Part shown: piece after piece, positions 13,659 through 59,600 of the stretch
Layout of the letters: each line of letters opens with the position of its first letter
Numbering within the stretch: the first letter of the stretch is position 1
NCBI RefSeq assembly: GCF_000003815.2
Contig: NC_049982.1
Span: 17,366,063-17,430,062 of the forward strand
Source of the DNA: Branchiostoma floridae
Lineage: Eukaryota; Chordata; Leptocardii; Amphioxiformes; Branchiostomatidae
Direction of reading: 5' to 3'
Length of the DNA stretch: 64,000 nt
The notes under the pieces: generated by a model
The model's database searches: none
What the model was told of the DNA's origin: nothing
Seen by the model: only the letters and a program-made list of their open reading frames with translations
Made by a program: the position numbers and the translations under genes

Positions 13659-17451
<3,793 letters not shown>

Positions 17452-20400
17452 CTGGCCTGACTAGAGAATATAACAGGATGTGCAAATCTATGTAATCAGT
17501 TCTATGAATTACCCAACGCATGTACATCTTTTGGCAAAGTAAGCCCAAATCAATAGCAGTAATCTCCTTTGACTCGATTGAAGGAGGTTGGCAAGTTTGA
17601 TCAATAACTTGAACGGGATAGTTGGCAAATATGCAGAATCACAAAAGTTGAATGCAGTTTTTCCGCCCCCCCCCCCCCCCCCAAATCTTGTAGCAACGTT
17701 AACATCATTCCGTAATTATCTTCTGAAACATTATTCATTAAACAGTGCAGTGGCCATCATCCTGAATTTGAAGCATTGGTGCTTGCAGTGCTCCATCAAA
17801 AATGCTAGATTGATGATGAAAAATCAGTACACTCAGTGGGATGTAGGAAGCACTTTCAAGCTAGAGAGGACGACATTTAGTCGTGAGCAAATACAGCATA
17901 TTTCAGCCATCTCCCTCTCTATGCAACAGTAGTTTCAAAATCATTCCTGTGCAAAAATGTAACATTTTGAAAAAATTTCTCTCCAAAAGTGAACTATTAT
18001 GAATTTATTGTCAGCCTTTCTAGTATTTGCTTGACATCTGAAGTCATAAATATGACTATGAGGAGCCAGGATAAGGTATGGATTTTATCTAGGTAAGGCA
18101 TCAACTATGATAATGTTATGATAATAGCCATTTTGCTGGGATGATTGTTGATTTCTGGTGTTAATGTTGAAAACCCTGATGTTAAGAATTAAATCATGTA
18201 AGCAAGGAAGGTATTTTAGCTCATCAAGAACCTCCTTGGGCTCATATAACCTCCTTGATGTAAGCTGAACTGTTTACTGTCTAACATTTATAATGTATCT
18301 ATAAAATGAACAACTGGGAGAGAAATACATGTAAAAATGTATAAATAGTCTTTGCTTATTTGTATTCAATGTATTTTAACATTATACGTCTGTTCGATTA
18401 GAATTACATCAGAATGTCCCTGGGTTTATATCTTAGTAAGGAAATTATCATTCAAAAAAGTGAGATGGAATTAAACTTTTATGACAATACCTTTGTTAGT
18501 GTTGTCCTCCTGCAATATTTAACTTATAAGTAATGCACCTAAGGCCACAGCAAGTAAATTTTGTGGATGACATCCTCTCCAGACTGCATCGTTACCGACC
18601 CGCTCTAATTCAACGTTAATCGTTATCGGTATATTCTTCGTGAAGCGTTATTGGTCGTTTTAATTAACGTTATCGTTATTTGTTATCCCGAATCACCGTT
18701 AAGCGTTACCAAGAAATTCTTCGTAACCCGTTATACACATGAAGTCTAATACCAGATAGAACCCCTGAGAATGCAGGAAATGGCGTCTCAAAGGGTCCAT
18801 ATTTCAAAATTTCTCCGAGCCTCCCGGCCTTCGGCTCTGAACAGGGTAAAATATGTTGCGGAAGCGTTGCCCTCAAAAACTTTATCACTCATACAGATTT
18901 CAGTGTCAAGCTTAGTTTCGGGCAAAAAGTACTTTTAGAATGCAGAAAATGAGGTTTCTCCCTTGCGACGGCTTGCGCCTTTGGCGCTTACGACGACATT
19001 GACAAAATATAAACGTTAGGGGCGTGGGCTTTCCGGCACACAAAAAAAAAAAAACCTTTTCTCTGTAAGAAAATGTTATATCTGATTTAGCTTCGTCTTA
19101 CAGCAAAATCTGTCCTTCAAAAGGCGTTTCAGACGGTCCAGATTTTAAAGTTTCCCCGGACTTATATTGCAACGTCTCGTGCCTTCCGAGCTCGAATCGA
19201 AATGGTAAAATATGTCGGGGGCTCTGGGGGTGGAGGCCAAAGCTATAACCATGTGTAATTAGATGAAAATGTCAACATCAACCTAGCTTAGTCGGTCGGC
19301 AAAATTTGTCGAAAAATGCAGGAAATAGCATTTAAAAGGGTCTTGGTTTTAAAATTTTCCCGGGGGAGCATACCCCCGGACCCCCCTAGGATGCGTCGCG
19401 CTTTCGGCGCTCCATGTGCTGAAACAATAGTTCAATCCCTCCATAAGAAATTTGCTGCCGGCGTCTCTGTGGCGGGCCGGGAACTCTAGATCTGCCTCCG
19501 TCAATTTACAGATGTCATGGACATTGTTCTGTCACACCTTTTGCTTCTCACATGTAAAAATGTATAAATAGTCTTTGCTTATTTGTATTCAATGTATTTT
19601 AACATTATACGTCTGTTCGATTAGAATTACATCAGAATGTCCCTGGGTTTATATCTTAGTAAGGAAATTATCATTTACCGGGCCTCCTGAATTCACCGTT
19701 AAGCGTTACCAAGACCCCCCCCCCCCCCATGCAGACCCTCTTATAAGTAATGCACCTAAGGCCACAGCAAGTAAATTTTGTGGATGACATCCTCTCCAGA
19801 CTGCAAAAATAGTGCGATAGGGCAAAAAAAAACAAGATGGCTTACATTTTAAAGAATAGACACCATAAAATTGTGATGACTATTGTAAAAAGAATTAAAG
19901 GGACAAAACATGGTATCAGAGCCAACAAAGCATTCATTCATGTATTTAAGACATGTACTGGTGTGGTAAAAGTGACACTAGTGACAGTAGACTGGCATCA
20001 CCAACAAAGTTGGTAACCACTCTCATAGCTTCCATATAGGTGTCACTTTTACAACTATCCGATAAGTTTAATTTCTACGACTACAGTCCTGGGTACCTCG
20101 CAAGTGTCTCTTCTACAAGTATAATTATTAGGCCATGTCAGTCAACACAACATATTTGCTCATTTTGGTACTTTATCATCATGTTGACTATCCCTGCAGA
20201 AGAACTTGTTTTTTTCTGTTTTTTTCTGAAATCAGGCGAAATGATGTCATCCATAAAAATTACTTGCTGTGGCCTAAATTCAAGAAATAAACTCAGGAGA
20301 TTACTTCCTCTTTTGAGTTTGATGGCCACATATATTACGTTTGCATATAATATTCCATTGTGTTGTGTTTATCCAATTACCATATTTTCAATGACTTAAT

Positions 20401-20646
20401 TGACCTACCCTAGGCATTTTAAAAGGAGGCAGACAATGTGTTGAACCAAGGATGGTTGAACTTGATCTTTCTTTCCCTCTTCAGTAAATGGTTTCTTCCA
20501 TAGGGCAGAGGTCAAAGGGTCGAGGTAAATAGGTCGACTGGTTTTGAGAGGAGCAAAGTACGGACGCCAAAGTACCGTTATATCCCGGGTACTAAACCTG
20601 ATATGAATCAATTCTAGTCTCAACCTTATATGTCCGCGAGTGAACA
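17452..20646. other. Intergenic DNA between oxidase copies 1 and 2
   Basis: No coding exon is seen. It contains a run of C near 17666-17682, the duplicated/interposed repeat structure at 18327-19805 (listed separately), and from about 20520 the promoter-proximal sequence of oxidase copy 2, parts of which (ggagcaaagtac; atgtccgcgagtgaac) recur before copy 3 at 26395-26440. Confidence 0.6.
18327..19805. repeat. Duplicated flanks around a GC-rich repeat-derived insert
   Basis: A 126-bp segment at 18327-18452 recurs at 19550-19675, and a 66-bp segment at 18523-18588 recurs at 19740-19805, in the same order and orientation. The spacer is 70 bp of unique DNA in the left copy but 64 bp in the right copy, containing poly-C and a fragment (CACCGTTAAGCGTTACCAAG) also present at 18694-18713. 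Between the copies, 18589-19549 is GC-rich, repeat-like and has three or more degenerate sub-repeats (phrases such as ccttcggctc, gcgctttcggcgctcc, aaaattttcccgggg). No ORF of note. Either a transposon-mediated duplication or two haplotypes laid end to end. Confidence 0.8.
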
Positions 20647-24850
<4,204 letters not shown>

Positions 24851-26423
24851 AATGTGACGGTCTTGGAAATGCTGAAGAGATGTGTACCTATGATATACTT
24901 CTCAATATTTTGTCTAGGAATTGATTTTTTATCTCATGATAATTGTGATTTTAGGGAATCAGATATCATTTCTATCCCTTGAAATAGATAGGTTACTACA
25001 CAGCTTTATTTCTTTATCTGTTTGTGAGGTTGATTATTACCAGTAAGGGCTAGAAGGACATTTTCAAGGCTAGCAAATCACAAACTGACGTCCTCACTCT
25101 CTGGAAATATATCATATATTGTAAGACAATAGAGGGACTCACCTAAAGCTACATTCCACTGTGAACAGTGATTTTTCTCTATATTGAATTCTAGACTTTG
25201 ATGTTATAGTGAGGGGTAGAATTACAAGTGTTAGTTAAAAGAAATCAGGGAAATTAATTGTATACTGTATACGGCTTGCTTCTTCAAAGTGAAAAATCAC
25301 ATCAAATGTGATTCAGATCTGTGCATCTTGGTATATCTGTGACTACAATTGCAGTTAGGTTCTGGATTTGTTTTTCAAAGTCAATACAGGAACTGAATTG
25401 TATCATGATAATGTCTATGTTTCCAATATGAATGTGAGGAGGAACATATATTGTGCAATTGATGATCTTTTCAATATTTGTACTCAAGTCATTGTTCAAA
25501 ACCTGTGAACAAACTTGCTTTCTTACATGGTGAAGTAATTAAAAACTAACCGATTCTACCTCGCACCTTATCATGACTTGAATATAATAAATTGCAAAGG
25601 CTGTCTGGGAGAATTACAACAGATCTTGATTGTTTGCAATAAAGGAATGAGTGGATTTTCATGAAAGTTTAACCACTAGCTTCTGTGACTGTGTATGTGT
25701 GTGTGGGGGGGGGGTGTAAGTGAGAGTTGTCGATGTAGGTTAGACATCCAGGTAATAAGATACGCCAAAAAGTAGTTATTCAAGCAACTGGATATGGTTT
25801 TGGAAACGGTCAGACGTTCCAAAACCATATCCAGTTGCTTGAGTAACTACTTTTTGGCGTATGTGAGAGTTGTTTTTAAAGCTTGTCAAACAAAAACTGA
25901 ACACCCCAGTCAATCTCATTTTAGGGATCTGGCTAATTATTGACAAAAAACATAAACATAATGCTAACATACTTCGCAAATATTCCAACGTAACTCATGG
26001 CCTACATAATGCACAAGAAAAGTTTATTGTGCACCATGACTTAGTCCCTGTTGCTTTATACACCGTTCAACGCCCACACCATGTCTCAACTGCCGTGAAC
26101 CCACGTTAGTTGACCAACGTTAATATGCACAAAGTGTTGACCGAAGGGAGAAAATTGCAAATACGATGTATTGTGTTGGTTCAACTGTAATGTCCTAAAC
26201 GACTAGATTTGATAGCACGATGTGCCCATGATTGCTTGAGTCACACAAAATAATTCTGTTCATTACCCTGTTGATAGATTTTTTTATGATCAATTTTTGA
26301 GAACCAACTTGTTTCCCATCTCTCTTCAGTAAATTAATCTGTTCCATGTGAGTCTAAGGGCCATGGGTACAAAGGTTATGAGATCGACTCGTCGAGGAGC
26401 AAAGTACAAAATTGTAGTGTTAC
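24851..26423. other. 3' flank of oxidase copy 2 and intergenic DNA
   Basis: The first 80 bp match the 3' flank of copy 3 closely. The rest is AT-rich with no exons, apart from the foldback element at 25731-25862. From about 26330 it becomes the promoter-proximal region of copy 3. Confidence 0.6.
25731..25862. mobile_element. Foldback (hairpin) element, full copy
   Basis: Arms of 45 bp at 25761-25805 and 25817-25861 are inverted repeats with one mismatch around an 11-bp loop (acggtcagacg). A 30-bp lead-in (cgatgtaggttagacatcc...) precedes the left arm. The 11-mer GTGAGAGTTGT occurs immediately on both sides (25720-25730 and 25863-25873), read as a target-site duplication. A shortened copy lies at 57166-57264. 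Confidence 0.8.
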
Positions 26424-26439
26424 ATGTCCGCGAGTGAAC

Positions 26440-30317
<3,878 letters not shown>

Positions 30318-31538
30318 AATGTGACGGTCTTGGAAATGTTAAAGAGAGATGTGTAACTATGATATACTTCTCAATATTTTGTCGAGGAAAACCACACACT
30401 GACTGACACTGACTGATTATTTATCATGTTTTAATTGTTATTTTAGGGGACCACATATCATTATTTCTGTCCTTTGAGATGTTACTATAACGTTTTATTT
30501 CTTTATCTATTTCTCGTATAATGATCCTTGATAGAGATTAGATATTCAGAGCTAGAAGCACCATTTGCAAGGCAAGCGAATCAAACAAGACATCACGAAA
30601 TGACGTTCTCACTTTCTGGCAAATATACAATATCCATATCATATTGTAAGACAATAGAGGTACTCAACTAAATTTAAAGCTACATGACACTGTGAACAGT
30701 AATTTTGTCTCTATATTGAATTCAATTCTTCAAGTGCTTGACACAAGAAGGCTTTGGTCACAAAAAGATGATATGTCAGAAAGTGGTCATGATCTTACTT
30801 CTTATAATCTGCTTTGCAGACTTCACGAACTTACTTGAAAATTTGGTATTACATTTTGCAAGCAGAAGAAGTATTTGATTACAGCTGTCAGCTATAGTCT
30901 TCACATCGCCTTCTAGGATGCTCTCTCAAGCATCTCTATGCTGATTAGGCCGCTTAGTCAGTATGCTCTACATAAGACGTTATTCACATTTCTTTGCATT
31001 TATAGTTAAACTAAGTATAACAAATGTCAAGAGACTCATTGGCATCAGCAGATTTTAATACATATCCAAATGCAAATACGTGTATAGGCAAATACATGCA
31101 ATACTGCTGAAAGATACTGAAACCCACAATTGGTCACTCCTGATTGAACAATCAATATATCACAAGTTTACTCACGTTAACCATTGTTACCTAGAGAGTA
31201 AAATTTCAAGATTTATTTTGTATTTCTATTTCCTAATTTGTAGTTGACTGTACAAATTAGTGATTTCCCTTGCATCAATAAAAATTCTACATATGGTAAT
31301 GATAAAATGATAATACAGGTAGTTTATAAGTTTATAAGCTTCAATGTGTGTCCCTTGTGCTTTGACTGAGCACCCACTTTCAATAATTTTTGACTATTTT
31401 TACCCAAAATGTCTAGGTCCTACACCAAAGTGTACATGTGTACTAAAATCTGAGAGTAGGGTCAATGTAAAGAGTTTTTGACAAAAATACTATTTGATCA
31501 TTGCAGGACTTTGGGGATTTGTAACATGTTCCTTATTC
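30318..31538. other. Intergenic DNA with possible oxidase 3' end
   Basis: Between convergent oxidase copy 3 and the macro-Deltex gene. It is AT-rich without exons. The segment 31110-31300 ends with ATCAATAAAAAT and is paralogous to the relic in oxidase intron 3, so it may be a distal poly(A) site of copy 3. Confidence 0.5.
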
Positions 31539-38813
<7,275 letters not shown>

Positions 38814-43808: not shown

Positions 43809-46800
43809 TCAGCAGAAACGGGAAGAAACAGCTGCGATCAGCTGGTACATCGCCAGGTGACGCTTTAGATGGTGTGAACAGCTAAAAGACACCTGGGAAA
43901 GGAGGCACACCAAAAGGGCGGTTAACGTTATAGTGTTCCACTGTGGAAAACTGACGTCGAAATAAATACATGATTTCCTTTCTTCTTTTTCATACACGTT
44001 AGCTTATTGCACATTGTAGTTCATACATGTCCTATTGGTGACGTTAGATGACAAGGAAATCATTAGAAACACTTGGACCATGCCAATCGAATACATGTAT
44101 ATGCAGGCCGGGCTACCCTGGTCCATTAATTACCCATGAGTCATAGAAATAAGCGCATGTTCCATCCCAACACGTACCTTTTCCCACAGTAGTAATCACA
44201 GCACTTGTAGCTCCCTTCCTCCTCCGGGTGCTGCTCATCGCAGTCGGTGTCGCTACTGCAGCTGTGGACGCAGCCGAAGGCCGTCCAGGCGTACCAGTCG
44301 GACAAGGTGGAATGGGCGGACTGGGCGGGGCAGGACCCGTCATTCTCCCCGTCCCCGCCGTCCCGCTTCAGCACTGTGGATAAAGATGGGTACATTAGCC
44401 ACACCTTAATTTATTACAAGGTATATTCAATTCAAAGGAAATGTCAGTTACTCAAAATTTCATCATCACATCAAAACGTTCGATTTTCGTGGCTTCCTTA
44501 CTGTATCATGTTATTGAGTTCATCATCGGGTTAGCCGGGCCCGGACTTTTCAAAACTTCCAACTTTTCGTACATCGTAATGTTTCTGCTAGTAATGTATG
44601 CTTTTGGTTGCCATTTTGTTGTTACTTATGTCTTTATTTTGTATTCATGTTAAGCGGTGGCAACAACACATATACTTTGCTCATTATTTCAACAAGCTTT
44701 TATGCCATGGTGAATACGTAACAATACACGCCATGCACAAATAGCTATGGTCAAAGTGATGTATACTTGTGTAAAAACTCCCTGCATAGGACAGTATGTT
44801 GATGAAAATATCCTACAATATATGCATAATTCTATGATGACTAAAATACTTCACATCCAATGAAAAGCTTGTGAGAACATGATTGACTACGTTTGAAACG
44901 AATTCTACATAATGGATTCAGCAAGACGTTAGCTACTATCGTATAATTGACAAGTTAAGCAAATTCAGATCAATCAATGCAGGCACATTTGTTTTGTCAT
45001 CATTACAAGAGTGGAAATCGGAATATGGAACAATAAATTGAACAAATGTACTTCTTAAAAACCATGTAATAAGCACAAGGTAATTCTGAGCCTTTCCTTT
45101 CCAATTTCGTTAGCATTTTGCCAATTCAAGGCATCACGCCAGACAAAGCACATGTGTCCTCTGGGACTTCATTACCCCTAGCCCGGCTACTGGGAGTTCG
45201 GCTTCCGCAAATCCCCCGGCTTGCAGCGTGGTTAGTAATAAAACTAACGAATCGTAGGTAATATGTGCACATCTAAATGCCTCCTCTTTTTTACAATGTG
45301 ACAAGAAGGCACCCAATCAGCAAATCCTACTGACTTCTGTCGGAATGGAAATGGGAAGCTTGTCATCAGGGGCACTTGCTCAATTTGCCCCCCCCCCCCC
45401 TCCATGCCAAAAAACTCAGACTTTGGGCTAAAATGATGATAAATGTTTTGACCCCCACCACGGTTGTTAGTTGAGGAATTCCGTTTAAGATTGCATGCTA
45501 TTGTAGTACGGTTTGCCACTGTAATTGCATTATTGAGAGAGGGTAACTGAGAGAGGACGTCAAGAAAATCCAGCACCATGCCAAGTAGCAGCATGACGCT
45601 GCTTTGTCTTGGTTAAAGGGAGTTATATTGGGTCCAGATCTCTAATGGAGTGATTTTAAAACACGTCATGAGAGAACGGGACTGGAGCCAATTTCCAATA
45701 CCTGGAGGCAAGTCGAATTATACGGTAAAAAAATGATGGAACAAGACGTCATTACTCGGAACGTGGTTGCTGCCACTTCTGAGAATGCAGGGAAAACTTC
45801 AAATGAATCACGGTGAATCCACCTGAGGATAGGACAAGGTGAAGGCCGGTGAATCAACCTCATAATGATTCTGACAAGGAAGGAAGGTAAAATCTGACAG
45901 GATCACAACGAAGTGGCTTGTCTATCACAATCCTAAGCCCTCTCTTTGTGCTGAGCCCACGGTGGAACTCACAACGTGGAGATCCTACGCCTCATCCGCA
46001 CAGCAACCAGAACCTGCTGCGTCTGTTGTTAAGATCCTCCCAAGCGTGGCTTTAAAGTGAACATGCCAAACATACACATTTCTGACTATACATCTACGGG
46101 GGAGGAGGGGATTCGCGGAGGGCACATGCCATGTTTAAGCAATGGCGTGCTGTAGCAGGCAGAATTGATAATACATACATACAGCAACTTTCAACGGACA
46201 ACGACTCGTACGCGTGGTGGTCACTGCCTTATCAAGCATGCGTATAAGATATCTTCGTGGAATTGCCAGTTGCGTTTTCATTTCGGCTGCATCGTCGAAG
46301 CTTCGTCGAGTTTTAGATTTTAGCCAGTTGTGAAAGCAGATCTTGAGTTACTTTGTAAGGGAAGTCCCATTTCAACACCTGAGCAAGAATTTTGTCCAGT
46401 ATCAAANNNNNNNNNNNNNNNNNNNNNNNNNNNNNNNNNNNNNNNNNNNNNNNNNNNNNNNNNNNNNNNNNNNNNNNNNNNNNNNNNNNNNNNNNNNNNN
46501 NNNNNNTGTATTACTCACTCACAAAGTTTCGGTCTCTGTCAGACACCATCATCATGGTAGATCATCATCATCATTTTGTCAAAGGTTCGTTAAGTATTTT
46601 TATATATTTGATTGCTAGATGTCTGCTTTGCCACACTTTTAACTGTACCAGAATACAAGCATAACTACAGGTGCCTTTAACCTGATTAGCCATATCGTTG
46701 CAATATATAACCAGTTGTGATATGTGCCCCCCAGGCCGCACGGGGCCGTGTGAGAACCTGTCCCCGACGCACACACAGCGTATGTTGTGTCTGAAGAAGT

Positions 46801-47838
46801 ACCTGCCGTGCTCCACGTCTGCAGACTGCCCAGAGGGACTAGCCTGCGGCTGCTCGGCAGTGTGTGGGTCAGTCTGTCGGGAGACTGGAGCGGCCTTCCC
46901 AGGTGAGTTAGCCAATTACATAGCAAACAACTAACAAACAAACAAACAATATATAAAAATACTTAACGAACCTTTGACAAAATGATGATGATGATCTACC
47001 ATGATGATGGTGTCTGACAGAGACCGAAACTTTGTGAGTGAGTAATACTTTAGGTGTGTTTCAAGAACCTTACTTTACAAAAAATTTACCAACATGGTGA
47101 AATCATGTGCGGAAGGTTTGACAAAATTGCTTCGCACAAACATCTGGAGCAACAGAGACCTTGCCAAAGTTGCCAGTTTCCAAAAAGGCGTAAAGAAATA
47201 GCTTTACCGATTGCCCACAACATGCATCGGACTTTCAGCCACTGGTGAGTTGAAACCGCCAAGAAAAGCTTGACTATGACAGATGGAACAGCTACTCGTA
47301 CCTTGTGTACTGAAATTCTTTCCATGAAAACTTCACAAAGCATTATGATGGGAAGCCTTTCTAAATTACATAATATAAGGATAGTTAAAGAGTATAACAG
47401 TGTAATAAAAAGTCTAGACTTTGTCCGTGGCGATGAGTTTAATAAGACAGCGACACAGCAATAATCTGGCAAAAAAGGTAAGCTAAGTCTTCAAGCTTCT
47501 TTTTGAGACCAGTGGCGCTCATGAAAGTAAAAGGAAAGCGCTCGGAAAGTCGAAGGAACTGAAATAGTAAAAAGAATCTGCCTAAAGTAGTAGAAGGAAA
47601 GCACCCTAGACAGGAAAAGGAAAGTACTTGGAAGAGTAGAAGGAAGTAGCCTTGTAGAGTGAAAGGAAAGTGCCCTAAACAGTAAAAGGAAAGTACTTGG
47701 AGGAGTAGGAAGTACCCTTGTAGAGTGAAAGGAAAGTGCCCAGAATCTTAGAAGGAAAAATGTGTCACCTGCCGAAACGGCAAACATCGCACATCCTACG
47801 GCGGTAGTCAACGCCAACATCTGAGCAACACTCTGCAT
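43809..47838 (-). CDS. Secreted protein with two WAP (four-disulfide core) domains; exon 2 lies inverted in this assembly
   Basis: Minus-strand exons 47838-47769, 44373-44178 and 43881-43809, plus exon 46735-46902 which is on the plus strand. Joined in transcript order, the four total 507 nt (168 aa) and the phases 1, 1 and 2 all match. Exon 1: signal peptide, start MQSVAQM, hydrophobic core LALTTAVGCAMFAV, likely cleavage after VSA. Exon 2: WAP domain 1 with eight Cys (one C-G-C in place of the usual CC). Exon 3 with exon 4: WAP domain 2 (DGSCPAQ, then GCVHSCSSDTDCDE, then YKCCDYYCGK), its eighth Cys being the first residues of exon 4, giving CGKSC, and a short basic tail ending SSRFC before TGA. 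WAP proteins are small secreted proteins, often protease inhibitors or antimicrobial; activity is not predictable here. As drawn, the gene cannot be spliced because exon 2 is reversed. Confidence 0.75.
46407..46506. other. Assembly gap (100 N)
   Basis: Placeholder-length gap directly next to the left arm of the 100-bp inverted repeat, so the arm may continue into it. Confidence 0.99.
46509..46608 (+). repeat. Left arm of 100-bp perfect inverted repeat
   Basis: Starts tattactcactcacaaag and ends tatatatt; contains a (TCA)n tract. Its exact reverse complement is at 46948-47047. It begins two bases after an N gap. Confidence 0.95.
46735..46902 (+). CDS. WAP-domain exon in reversed orientation (exon 2 of the WAP gene)
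   Basis: Flanked by a good acceptor (gtgccccccag) and donor (cccag|gtgagt) on the plus strand; phase 1 at both ends. The frame reads RTGPCENL, then LKKYLPCSTSADCPEGLACG, then SAVCGSVCRETG: eight cysteines with WAP spacing. No partner exons are visible on the plus strand on either side, while the minus-strand signal-peptide exon ends VSAG in phase 1 and the minus-strand exon at 44373 starts in phase 1. Confidence 0.85.
46948..47047 (-). repeat. Right arm of 100-bp perfect inverted repeat
   Basis: Exact reverse complement of 46509-46608. The 339 bp between the arms (46609-46947) carries the reversed WAP exon. Confidence 0.95.
47525..47762. repeat. Purine-rich minisatellite
   Basis: Tandem phrases such as 'aaaggaaagtgccc' and 'aggaaagtacttgga.gagtag' in a higher-order unit of about 65-70 bp, clearest at 47615-47745. 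It begins a few bases inside intron 1 of the WAP gene, next to the donor at 47768. Confidence 0.8.
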
Positions 47839-53664: not shown

Positions 53665-56600
53665 TTACTGGTTGGTCTTCACTTCTTCTGCTCCCACACC
53701 GAGCTCTTCCTTGAGGATAGCATCTATCTCACTCCTGTCAAAAGAATAGAAACATGTCACTGCATGGATGTTCAATACAGCTGTATTCCTTTTGTTGTTT
53801 CTTTTTAACATAATACCAAACAGTTGGAAACAAAGTTATTGGTATGGTACACTACCATTTCTTGACTAAAAGAAAGGAAATGAAGGCTTTCAGTGATTCT
53901 TAAACTTAAATGGCTGTTGCAGCCTTGTAACACTCATTCCTCCCACAGTACCTGATGTTTAACCACAGCCAACTGATGAGGATAACAGAATCTGAGAAAT
54001 TCACTAAGTAAATAATTTTCCATTTTTGCAACCTATAGCAACTCACTATAGCAACCTATTAAGCAGTCTTATATATGTTTTTCCATGCAATAACTACAAC
54101 TCATGAATCCATAATAAATATCAAATTTGCCACTTCAATAAATGTTACATCAGACTCACTGTTTTATTTCAGTCATGGCAGATTTCAGGTTCTCAGCATA
54201 TTCCACGATCTTGGGAAGTCCACAGTGAACAGCGACGCTCAAACCAGCCTGAGATTGTTAAAAATAGGGAGGGCACAAATGTATCTTCTTCATGGTCTGG
54301 TGCTCCAAGGTTAAGATAATAAAAGACACAAAAAGCAAAAGCTGTAGTGCTGAAACTTACATTTCATGATCAAAACCACTAGCCTGTACCATAACCAAAT
54401 TTAGAAACACACATTGAGATGTCAAGTTGCGATTTTTACTGAAAGCTTTAGAACTGAGCTGGCAATTCAGGACACCAAATGCAAGGTGTGTTATAAGACT
54501 AGTTGTCTTCCCTTGTTAAACTTACTATGAGTCAATTCACATTTTGATGATAAATAAATGAATAATGCATATGAGTCATTTCTGTACCTTTGCTTTGGCT
54601 TTGTCCTTAGCTTCAACACAGACAGCCAGGTACTCCTCCATAGCCTCAGCCCTGCAGAGTAAAGGGATCTATGTGTCATTTGTGGGCTAACATGTAGATG
54701 TGACATGTAGATGTGACATGTAGATGTGACATGTAGATGTGACATGTAGAGGTGACATGTAGATGTAACATGTAGAGGTGACGTGTAGATGTGACGTGTA
54801 GATGTGACATGTAGATGTGACATGTAGATGTGACATGTAGATGTGACATGTAGATGTGACATGTAGATGTGACATGTACCCCCGGTAGATGTGACATGTA
54901 CTAGTAGATGTGACATGTAGATGTGACATGTAGATGTGACATGTAGATGTGACATGTAGATGTGACATGTAGAGGTGACCTGTAGATGTGACATGTAGAG
55001 ACATGTAGATGTGACATGTAGATGTGACATGTAGAGGCGACATGTAGAGGCGACATGTAGAGGCGACATGTAGATGTGACATGTAGATGTGACATGTAGA
55101 TGTGACATGTAGAGTGACATGTAGATGTGACATGTAGATGGGACATGTAGATGGGATATGTAGACGTGACATGTAGATGTGACATGTAGATGTGACATGT
55201 ACCCCCGGTAGATGTGACATGTACTAGTAGATGTGACATGTAGATGTGACATGTAGATGTGACATGTAGATGTGACATGTAGATGTGACATGTAGAAGTG
55301 ACCTGTAGATGTGACATGTAGAGACATGTAGATGTGACATGTAGATGTGACATGTAGAGGCGACATGTAGAGGCGACATGTAGAGGCGACATGTAGAGGC
55401 GACATGTAGATGTGACATGTAGATGTGACATGTAGATGTGACATGTAGAGTGACATGTAGATGTGACATGTAGATGGGACATGTAGATGGGATATGTAGA
55501 CGTGACATGTAGATGTGACATGTAGAGGTGATATGTAGACGTGAAATGTAGATGTGACATGTAGATGTGACATGTAGATGTGAAATGTAGATGTGACATG
55601 TAGATGTGACGTGTAGATGTGACATGTAGACTGTAAGCAATGCAGAATCAGAACTATTCCTTCTGGAAAATTTTGTTAGTCCATGCATGTCAATAAGATA
55701 AAGTAAGTTAACAACTGACCTTGGAGTTTTGGTATACTCCTTGAACAATGGAAGCATCTCACTGTTTGGGTAAGAGAACATTATGAGGGTTTACTTCAAA
55801 ATCTTAACAAACATCTACAACATAAAGTATGGAAGAGGTGTTGTGTTTTTACAGGAAAACTTAGATATGGATATAGATTTTTAGACAAGGGCAAATCATA
55901 AAAATCGATTGATAACATTTTGAGTCACCCATTTGACCAACCAACTAACAGTTTGGTAAGACAATGAATGCTAATATACACATTATGCATGCCAAAGGCC
56001 TTGGCTTATAGGAGATACATGAAATATCCCAACATGCACCTGGCCTTCTTGAGTTGCCCAGCTCTGAGAAACAGGACCAAGAGATTGCTCAGAGACTCGG
56101 AGCTCCAGCTGTAAAAGATGATTCAAAGAATGTCTCAGTAATATCACAAGAAACATGCGTCAACAGATTGTTCAGAACTATTGATACAAGTCAACTGACA
56201 TGTTTCCAGCAACAACACCACAAACATTACCAGCCTTGATTATACATGTTATTTTAGCAAGTTACCAGAGTATGCCAAAATTTCTATTTTTCAAAGTCTT
56301 AAAAACATTTTCTATTTAGAGATGACTAGTGTACTATTCCTAGTATTATTTCCGAAAACCTTCCAAGAACTGATGATCCTTACATCACGATAGTCCCCTG
56401 AAATGGTGGGCTACTTGTGACACCTGCTTTCTTTTTAAACAAGAGGCAGTTTTAGACTAAAAGGTTGAAGCCATGGGACCTAAGCCATGTCTGGCACTGG
56501 TTACAAACTCCAAAATCCATGTCTGGCATTGGTAATCTCCATACAGATGTTGGATCTGGTTTATAGTTTTTTTTAGGTATGTTTGGAGGATTTTTGTCCA

Positions 56601-59600
56601 TTAGCACAAAAATATTATGACAGGCACATACCTTAGAGTTGCTCTGCGAGCTGGGGCTGTTGCCTTGTAGTAAAACTCAATGTTGTCCTTGATGTTTTGT
56701 ACAACTGGCATGAACAGCAGTTGGATCTGAACATGGGCACAAAGATGGGATTCAGGGTATGGTAAAAATTTAGAGCTTGGAAGGCCATCAGGTAGGGTTT
56801 TCAGAATTACATGTACATGAAGAGTGGGAGCAGTACTAGATACCCAATCAGGGATGACTATCAAAAGGAAAAGGTGAAGGGTAAAGGACTGCTCTCCTGA
56901 ATATCATTAGTACTTGTTATTACTAGCAATGCACAGTGTTACTGTACTTAGATACTTAGACCAAGAAGTTTACAACATCAATAGCTGCATACTCGTGTCC
57001 CAACATGATATTACTACTAGTATTAGGCAGGCAAACCCAAAGTCAAAAAGTTTACATTTGGCCACTGCAACTACAAATGCAAATGTTCTTCTGAAACTAT
57101 ACATCAATACTTAATACAATAAAATGTGTGTACTATCCACTATGCAGGAGTGCATTAGTATTGAAACGTCGATGTAGGTTAGACATCCAGGTAATAAGAT
57201 ACGCCAAAAGTAGTTACTCAAGCAACTGGATATGATTTTGGAAACGGTCAGACTACTTTTTGGCGTGCATTAGTATTGAATAATTCTATCAAAGATTTAA
57301 AACATCAAGCCAACATTTCTGCAGTTTTACTATCATGAAATTTGTGTTCACCTACCTCAGGGGACTGTTTCTCCCTGGCCATGAACTCAAGAACAGCCTC
57401 CACTAACTCCTGCTTGTTAAAGTGCTGCAGGGACCGAATATCTGAGCAACAAGGAGGCAAAATGGACTGAATACAAATGTACTTGTAGTGCATTGTACAT
57501 GTAGCCTTAAGATTTCAAAGCAAAGTTTATAACTGTGTCTGAAAACACACTATGGAAACCATCATGACTTATCCCAGGCTAACAGTAATGTTGAGTCATT
57601 CACTCACTCCCTCGCTTGGTCACTCAGTCACTCACTCACTAACTCAGTCACTCACTCAGTCAATCACTCAGTCACTCGCTTGGTCACTCAGTCACTCACT
57701 CACTAACTCACTCCCTCACTCACTCAATCACACCTTACCTTCCCACAAGTCTGTGACCTTGTGATGCATGTTGCTGACCTCCAGTGACTTCAGGATGTTT
57801 AAGATTGAAGGCACATTTGGATAATACACCTGCAACAGTTAACACTGCAGATTAGGGGGAGTCTATGTGGTATGATTTCATGCTACATGTATGTACTTAA
57901 AGAAGGAAACTTTCATGAAAACCATAATTTAGACCTTACTTTGGAATATAAATTGGTAAAGTTTTGCTGTCAGTTCAGCTAGCTTCATGTTTAATAACCC
58001 AACCATTATGAAGGTCCTCAGGTTTCAGTTGAATTATTCATTGTGTGGGCCTTTATGCCTTACTCACATACTCAGAGAGTATTGTGTATGTGATGTCAAT
58101 TATAATGGACTTGACAAATAGCCAATGCTGTAGCCTGCACTCAGCCAGCGCACACCAAGCCAATAAAGCGGTAGATATAGTGTGTGTTACCCACCGAGGG
58201 CACCAGGTTCCTGTACCACTTCCACATCTCCTCTCCTCCCTCCATCTGACAGATGAGATTCAGAAACTTTCCACTGAAACAGAAATGCCTCATTACAATA
58301 TGATCAACATCATTCATCTTAATCTCAGAGTGGCTGAATATTCTGTTCACAATCATTTACACATTCACATCAACACCTTCTTTAGATCAAGCTTAAGTTG
58401 CTGTAAATGACAATACAGTGCTAACAATTGGTCTATATAACAAAAAATCTTTCTTAAAAAATGACACTGCTTTCCAACTATGGTGAGTAAAGTTGCCTGT
58501 CCTTTAAAAAAGGAAACATCACAGATTGAGCACATAAACCTGCTGAGTAGAAACAGCGAATGCAGGTACTTTATTGTTTGTGGACCATACTTACTAGTAC
58601 ACAGACTGTATGTATGCATCTCCCAGGAGCCTCCAGTTTTCCCCTGTCTCCTGTAACTTGTGCAGCCGATAGGCAAGCTCAACATCATTCATGCGGAGGC
58701 ACTGAGGAAGGGAAAGTTCAGAATAAATTACTGTTCTTTCAGTTTTCACAAAGTACACAAAGTAACACAACAGAAAAGGGCAAGATTATCTATCTGTGAG
58801 CTTTACTGGAAATAATGATTAACTGGTGTTAAGGGCATAAGGGACAGAAGTCATTTCTTAAAATCATCTGTTTTGACTTAACAATTCACCACTATTGCAA
58901 TATCCAATGTCAGCAACAAACAAGTTGCTTTTCGAATGTTTCTTGACTTACCATGTTCATGGCATCCACAAAGAAACGACCTGGAAAAAAAGAGAGAGAA
59001 TTAGACTGTAGAAATGGCCAGACCCTTCAATTTACAATGAAGAAAATGCATCCCTGCTCAACTGTCATGGCTTCCCACAATATCAGGCACATATTCATAG
59101 TCCTTCTCTGCAGACTTGGTGAAGCCTTTGACATTTCTTTGTGTCATATTTCCATACAGAAGTGTCATGACGGTGCGAGAGGCTACAAGAAACATGTGAC
59201 TAACACAAATGAAGCCCAGGGGCTAGCCAATATGTCTTCCTTCTGTCATTCTTGGAGAAACAGCCAATACAAATGTTTCCCTCTCTCTTTCTTCCCTCCT
59301 TCATTGTTTGGAGCTTATGATGTTCATCTTAGTTGTTAAATCTGTCATCTTAAGCTTATGAAAACACATTTTCATATATTTTTAAGAATAAATTTCAGAT
59401 TTTTGGAATGGAAAGGGTAAAATTTTTGTAGGCCCCTAATAGCAAATTTCCATCCAAAGACTGAGGGATGGGTCCTGGAGACAGCCATGCTTGCCAGCCT
59501 GCTGTCGATCTGCATCAGCTATGAGTGACAAAGGTTATAATGTCCATACTGTCATCCTGGTCTTGTATTGTAAACTCCTTTCCTTCCACCTCATCCATTA

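Follow-up and report, generated by a model that had tools for sequence, protein, structure and literature searches.

A backward WAP-domain exon between perfect inverted arms at an assembly gap in Branchiostoma floridae, a possible contig-end artefact

In Branchiostoma floridae, a minus-strand gene for a small two-WAP protein carries its second exon backward, enclosed between two perfect inverted arms that reach to within one base of a contig edge (Table 1). We read this structure, at 46508-47048 of the window (the whole 64,000-nucleotide stretch that was analysed, G000:C4:17366063-17430062), as an artefact of the contig end, either a foldback or a misjoin, and give this reading a probability of roughly 0.5. 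The event would then have occurred in cloning or assembly and not in the animal, where exon 2 would lie on the minus strand like the rest of the gene.

Table 1. Features of the locus, in positions of the window
Feature	Position	Strand	Length and remarks
Exon 4	43809..43881	-	73 nt; last WAP cysteine, C-terminus, stop TGA
Exon 3	44178..44373	-	196 nt; bulk of second WAP domain
Assembly gap	46407..46506		100 N; immediately precedes contig with inverted segment
Left inverted arm	46508..46608	+	101 nt; one base from contig edge
Segment between arms	46609..46947		339 nt; contains exon 2; single copy found in assembly
Exon 2	46735..46902	+	168 nt; first WAP domain, phase 1-1; strand opposite to exons 1, 3 and 4
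Right inverted arm	46948..47048	-	101 nt; reverse complement identical to left arm
Dispersed-repeat remnant	46995..47106	-	outer 54 nt of right arm and about 58 nt beyond its boundary
Exon 1	47769..47838	-	70 nt; start codon, hydrophobic N-terminus (by eye); ends in phase 1

Exons, splice sites and phases of the gene were re-derived, and they confirm that a WAP exon lies backward in a two-WAP gene, as the first-pass annotation had claimed. All four exons have splice sites (exon 1 donor GTGACA; exon 2 acceptor CCCCCCAG and donor GTGAGT), and once exon 2 is flipped they join in phase into one frame of 168 aa with no internal stop, in agreement with the translation first proposed. The 16 WAP cysteines described earlier were found again, eight per domain, in a count by eye on that translation. 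The gene had also been said to be cut by the inverted exon, which is correct as to the inversion but too strong as to its effect, because exon 2 is phase-symmetric and skipping it keeps the frame; exons 1, 3 and 4 together give an open one-WAP frame of 112 aa. With phase 1 on both sides of exon 2 and a frame that stays open without it, inversion would remove one WAP domain and leave the frame unbroken, and at most it would turn a two-WAP product into a one-WAP product, provided that splicing then joins exon 1 to exon 3. Within intron 1 there is also a degenerate array of 23-bp periodicity (47565-47758).

The joined protein scores 26.8 bits against the Pfam WAP family (PF00095), above its curated cut-off of 20.8 bits, and exons 3 and 4 together reach 21.1 bits, also above it, while exon 2 alone falls below at 17.8 bits (E 0.004). 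The WAP four-disulfide core is thus recognised both by the family score and by the eight cysteines in each domain, with exon 4 supplying the final cysteine of domain 2. Exon 2 most likely belongs to this minus-strand gene. As assembled, it lies on the plus strand with its own acceptor and donor, as expected if it were part of a separate plus-strand gene and not of this one, and exons of phase 1-1 fit many genes, so that the in-frame join is weak to moderate evidence of membership. However, the flanking minus-strand exons fit in phase and make a regular two-WAP protein with exon 2, and no plus-strand partner was recognised among the open frames listed, which leaves a separate gene improbable.

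In a search of the assembly the protein matches the four local exons, of which only exon 2 lies on the plus strand, and there are four further, weak matches at distant places (E 0.07 to 0.93). At one distant locus (L052) a WAP-like stretch is matched by both exon 2 and exon 3, and exon searches of the four distant loci gave no comparable exon pair, hence no paralogue showing the ancestral exon order. Tandem copies of the gene were sought in 264 kb and in the repeat loci described below, and nothing was found there beyond one 21-residue match (56627-56689, E 0.018), which runs directly into a stop. The search of solved structures gave no relative; its 11 sequences up to E 10 were all amylases (best E 0.1) and are taken as meaningless. 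In a survey of the amphioxus and Branchiostoma literature on WAP, assembly, MITE and inversion, which was not exhaustive, no paper on the locus was found. Elsewhere in the window, at about 14893-30352, there are repeated stretches 5-7 kb apart that resemble tandem gene copies, and in one of them the motif ELGANWIHG, noticed by eye, is reminiscent of flavin amine oxidases. A tandem array with a 46-bp unit occupies 36906-37631, and a 13-bp minisatellite at 54494-55675 leaves a minus-strand open frame of 394 codons from stop to stop.

The two arms are 100% complementary and lie 339 nt apart. They had been described as exact 100-bp inverted repeats; the perfection holds, but the length does not, one base having been missed on each side. 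As a single strand the arms are predicted to form a very stable hairpin (z -22). The inner 47 nt of the arm (query 46548-46640) match the assembly at the two arms only, and within 311 kb of sequence the inner part has one further match, of 16 nt. Since these 47 nt are confined to a single locus and the outer boundary falls in the middle of a dispersed repeat, the arm pair is most simply seen as a local inverted duplication and not as two insertions. The fact that the inner half occurs nowhere else in the assembly also makes the arms look like the product of the event and not its cause. With no difference between the arms in 101 nt, and with the frame, cysteines and splice sites of exon 2 preserved, the structure bears no sign of age.

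These properties bear directly on the earlier proposal that the exon was inverted by recombination between the repeats, possibly as a polymorphic on/off switch. Such a switch would have exon 2 flipping reversibly and recurrently between identical arms and segregating, toggling the gene between two-WAP and one-WAP products with the frame intact, and the perfectly inverted arms and the frame that is open without exon 2 would suit it. Recombination between pre-existing repeats is nevertheless unsupported, since repeats that exist independently of the inversion were not found, the inner half of the arm being present at the two arms only. The arms are product-like and unlike pre-existing repeats, the structure abuts a contig end, a single orientation is present in the one assembly searched, and a gene whose frame is open without exon 2 would hardly be turned off by the flip. 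We therefore regard the switch as highly improbable.

The outer 54 nt of the arm are an old dispersed repeat, found in at least 44 other places at 82-95% identity. This count is a lower bound, as 40 of 93 candidates were scored; the 91 match rows comprise 3 for the locus itself and 88 for the 44 places, each on both strands. None of the matches listed across the assembly extends past arm nt 54. All of the 20 repeat places that were fetched match the arm (23 matches), one of them (L010) as far as arm nt 73 at 78% identity. Homology to the repeat continues outside the right arm, where a match to 47049-47110 adjoins the arm match at 7 of the 20 loci (L013, L014, L016, L018, L023, L024 and L027), the longest, from L027, reaching 47106. 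Because it crosses the boundary of the right arm to about 47106, the limit of 101 nt is probably set by the gap and not by the end of the repeat. The dispersed outer-arm matches, which include five close inverted pairs among the matching places, had first suggested the insertion of a MITE-like transposon. The arms do not coincide with the ends of such an element, as homology covers their outer 54 nt (once up to nt 73) and goes on past 47048, and two opposite insertions of one transposon around exon 2 were rejected because the inner 47 nt are single-locus and homology crosses the arm boundary.

Two further observations concern the repeat family as such. Its consensus resembles a hammerhead ribozyme core, and this candidate was rejected because Rfam, with E values up to 1 allowed, gave no hammerhead in the 14 loci searched, namely L001, which is the locus described here, and 13 of the fetched 20 repeat places. 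One palindromic copy of the repeat (L011, 592-707, both strands) matches Rfam mir-2041 with 56.9 and 53.7 bits (E 3.7e-9 and 2.5e-8), where the gathering score is 70, so that the mir-2041 family may have its origin in the dispersed repeat or may have been annotated on it. L011 and L012 (G000:C7 341277-342526 and 256125-257374) lie 85 kb apart and align over 907 bases with 90% identity and over 280 with 99% identity, the stretch common to both including the palindromic repeat.

The position of the structure relative to the gap bears on its origin. The gap is one of five N runs in the window (924, 202, 127, 100 and 100), and the contig that follows it starts at 46507, so that the left arm begins at its second base. 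Position 46507 is T where a continued inverted copy would have A, which points either to an error in the terminal base of the contig or to a genuine end of the copy at this point. In the first case the gap truncates the left copy and 101 nt is a lower bound. A small sample of 264 kb, consisting of the window with 10 kb of flank on either side and of 18 further stretches of 10 kb (14 from the same contig and 4 from C1), contains 22 perfect inverted pairs of at least 25 nt within 3 kb, several of them pieces of one longer pair, and 4 pairs of at least 50 nt (59, 75, 81 and 101 nt). A perfect 101-nt inverted pair is not due to chance, but long pairs of this kind are not rare in the genome. The 15 N runs of the sample, 3 of which are cut by a stretch end, provide 27 contig edges, and by eye only that at 46507 has a perfect inverted pair of at least 25 nt ending within 5 nt. 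Elsewhere in the sample, a 75-nt perfect inverted pair (L030-L031, G000:C4 about 1015651-1016838) brackets a 961-N gap from 34 and 43 nt away. The window also has a perfect 126-nt direct repeat (18327-18452 and 19550-19675), with copies 1.2 kb apart and no adjoining gap.

Misassembly beside the gap had been named in the first-pass annotation as one of two explanations, and it is the one we favour, short of proof, as the edge is one base away and the repeat crosses the arm boundary. A clone or read that is chimeric or folded back on itself, or a join that was resolved wrongly, would place an inverted copy of the intron (the arm) at the edge, and the same artefact would turn the segment between the arms, so that exon 2 would appear on the plus strand. 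Such an origin accounts for the site at the gap, for the perfect identity of the arms and for exon 2 being intact, and the 542 nt from 46507 to 47048 fit within one Sanger read. Several points count against a contig-end artefact. Ordinarily, a join requires more than one read, and a pure foldback predicts A at 46507 and so needs an error in the last base to account for the T. The stable hairpin of the arms could itself have caused a gap beside a real structure, and the second sampled gap that lies inside a perfect inverted pair also speaks against an artefact, as does the very high rate of inversion reported in lancelets (PMC12500494).

The main rival is a real one-off variant of the sequenced haplotype, which we consider a serious possibility, though a less likely one. 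Here a small inversion of the exon 2 segment would have come about through staggered breaks or a template switch, with some 100 nt or more of the intron duplicated in inverted orientation, and the haplotype would be one-WAP if splicing joins exon 1 to exon 3. The inverted piece does have an inverted duplication at both ends, in 101-nt perfect arms with a locus-specific inner half, and inverted duplications at breakpoints are described as a sign of staggered breaks in Drosophila (PMC5080602). The open frame without exon 2 and the T at 46507, which fits an arm genuinely ending there, are likewise as expected. Many inversions are reported in amphioxus, where translocations and inversions are put at about 30 times the human-chimpanzee rate; the heterozygous inversions described there in a B. 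floridae family are large (PMC12500494). On the other hand, the contig must then have ended one base past the breakpoint by chance or through the hairpin, exon 2 is without decay, and searches of the assembly gave no second haplotype for comparison. According to its description, the assembly was made from about tenfold Sanger reads with ARACHNE, the two divergent haplotypes being assembled separately and combined by HaploMerger2 before scaffolding with HiRise (PMC7269912). In the single merged assembly that was searched (513,431,437 bases, 431 contigs), 45400-46406, 46509-47047 and 47100-47800 each have one full-length place in a search that skips simple repeats, and exon 2 is present in one orientation only.

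The consequences differ with the reading adopted. If the structure is a contig-end artefact, it is a warning that Sanger assemblies with merged haplotypes can display exons next to gaps backward, and the gene model at this locus would need correcting. A real one-off variant would show how the phase symmetry of a domain exon allows a rearrangement of this kind to be tolerated. If the flip is reversible, an animal gene would owe its number of domains to DNA inversion, a very unusual situation.

Foldback and chimeric-read artefacts at contig ends are known from shotgun assemblies, and the lancelet locus resembles them in having a perfect inverted copy that stops a single base short of the contig edge, but differs in that the last contig base is mismatched. 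As in the Drosophila inversions attributed to staggered breaks (PMC5080602), the segment is flanked by inverted copies of one sequence, whereas the lancelet structure measures only 541 bp and lies at a contig edge. Inverted repeats also flank the inverted piece in human polymorphic inversions mediated by such repeats, for which both orientations are described as genotyped (PMC3961182); here there is one orientation and the arms are product-like. As for the protein itself, which has no relative among solved structures, it shares with Es-DWD1 and other double WAP domain proteins the presence of two WAP domains in one small protein (PMC3742519).
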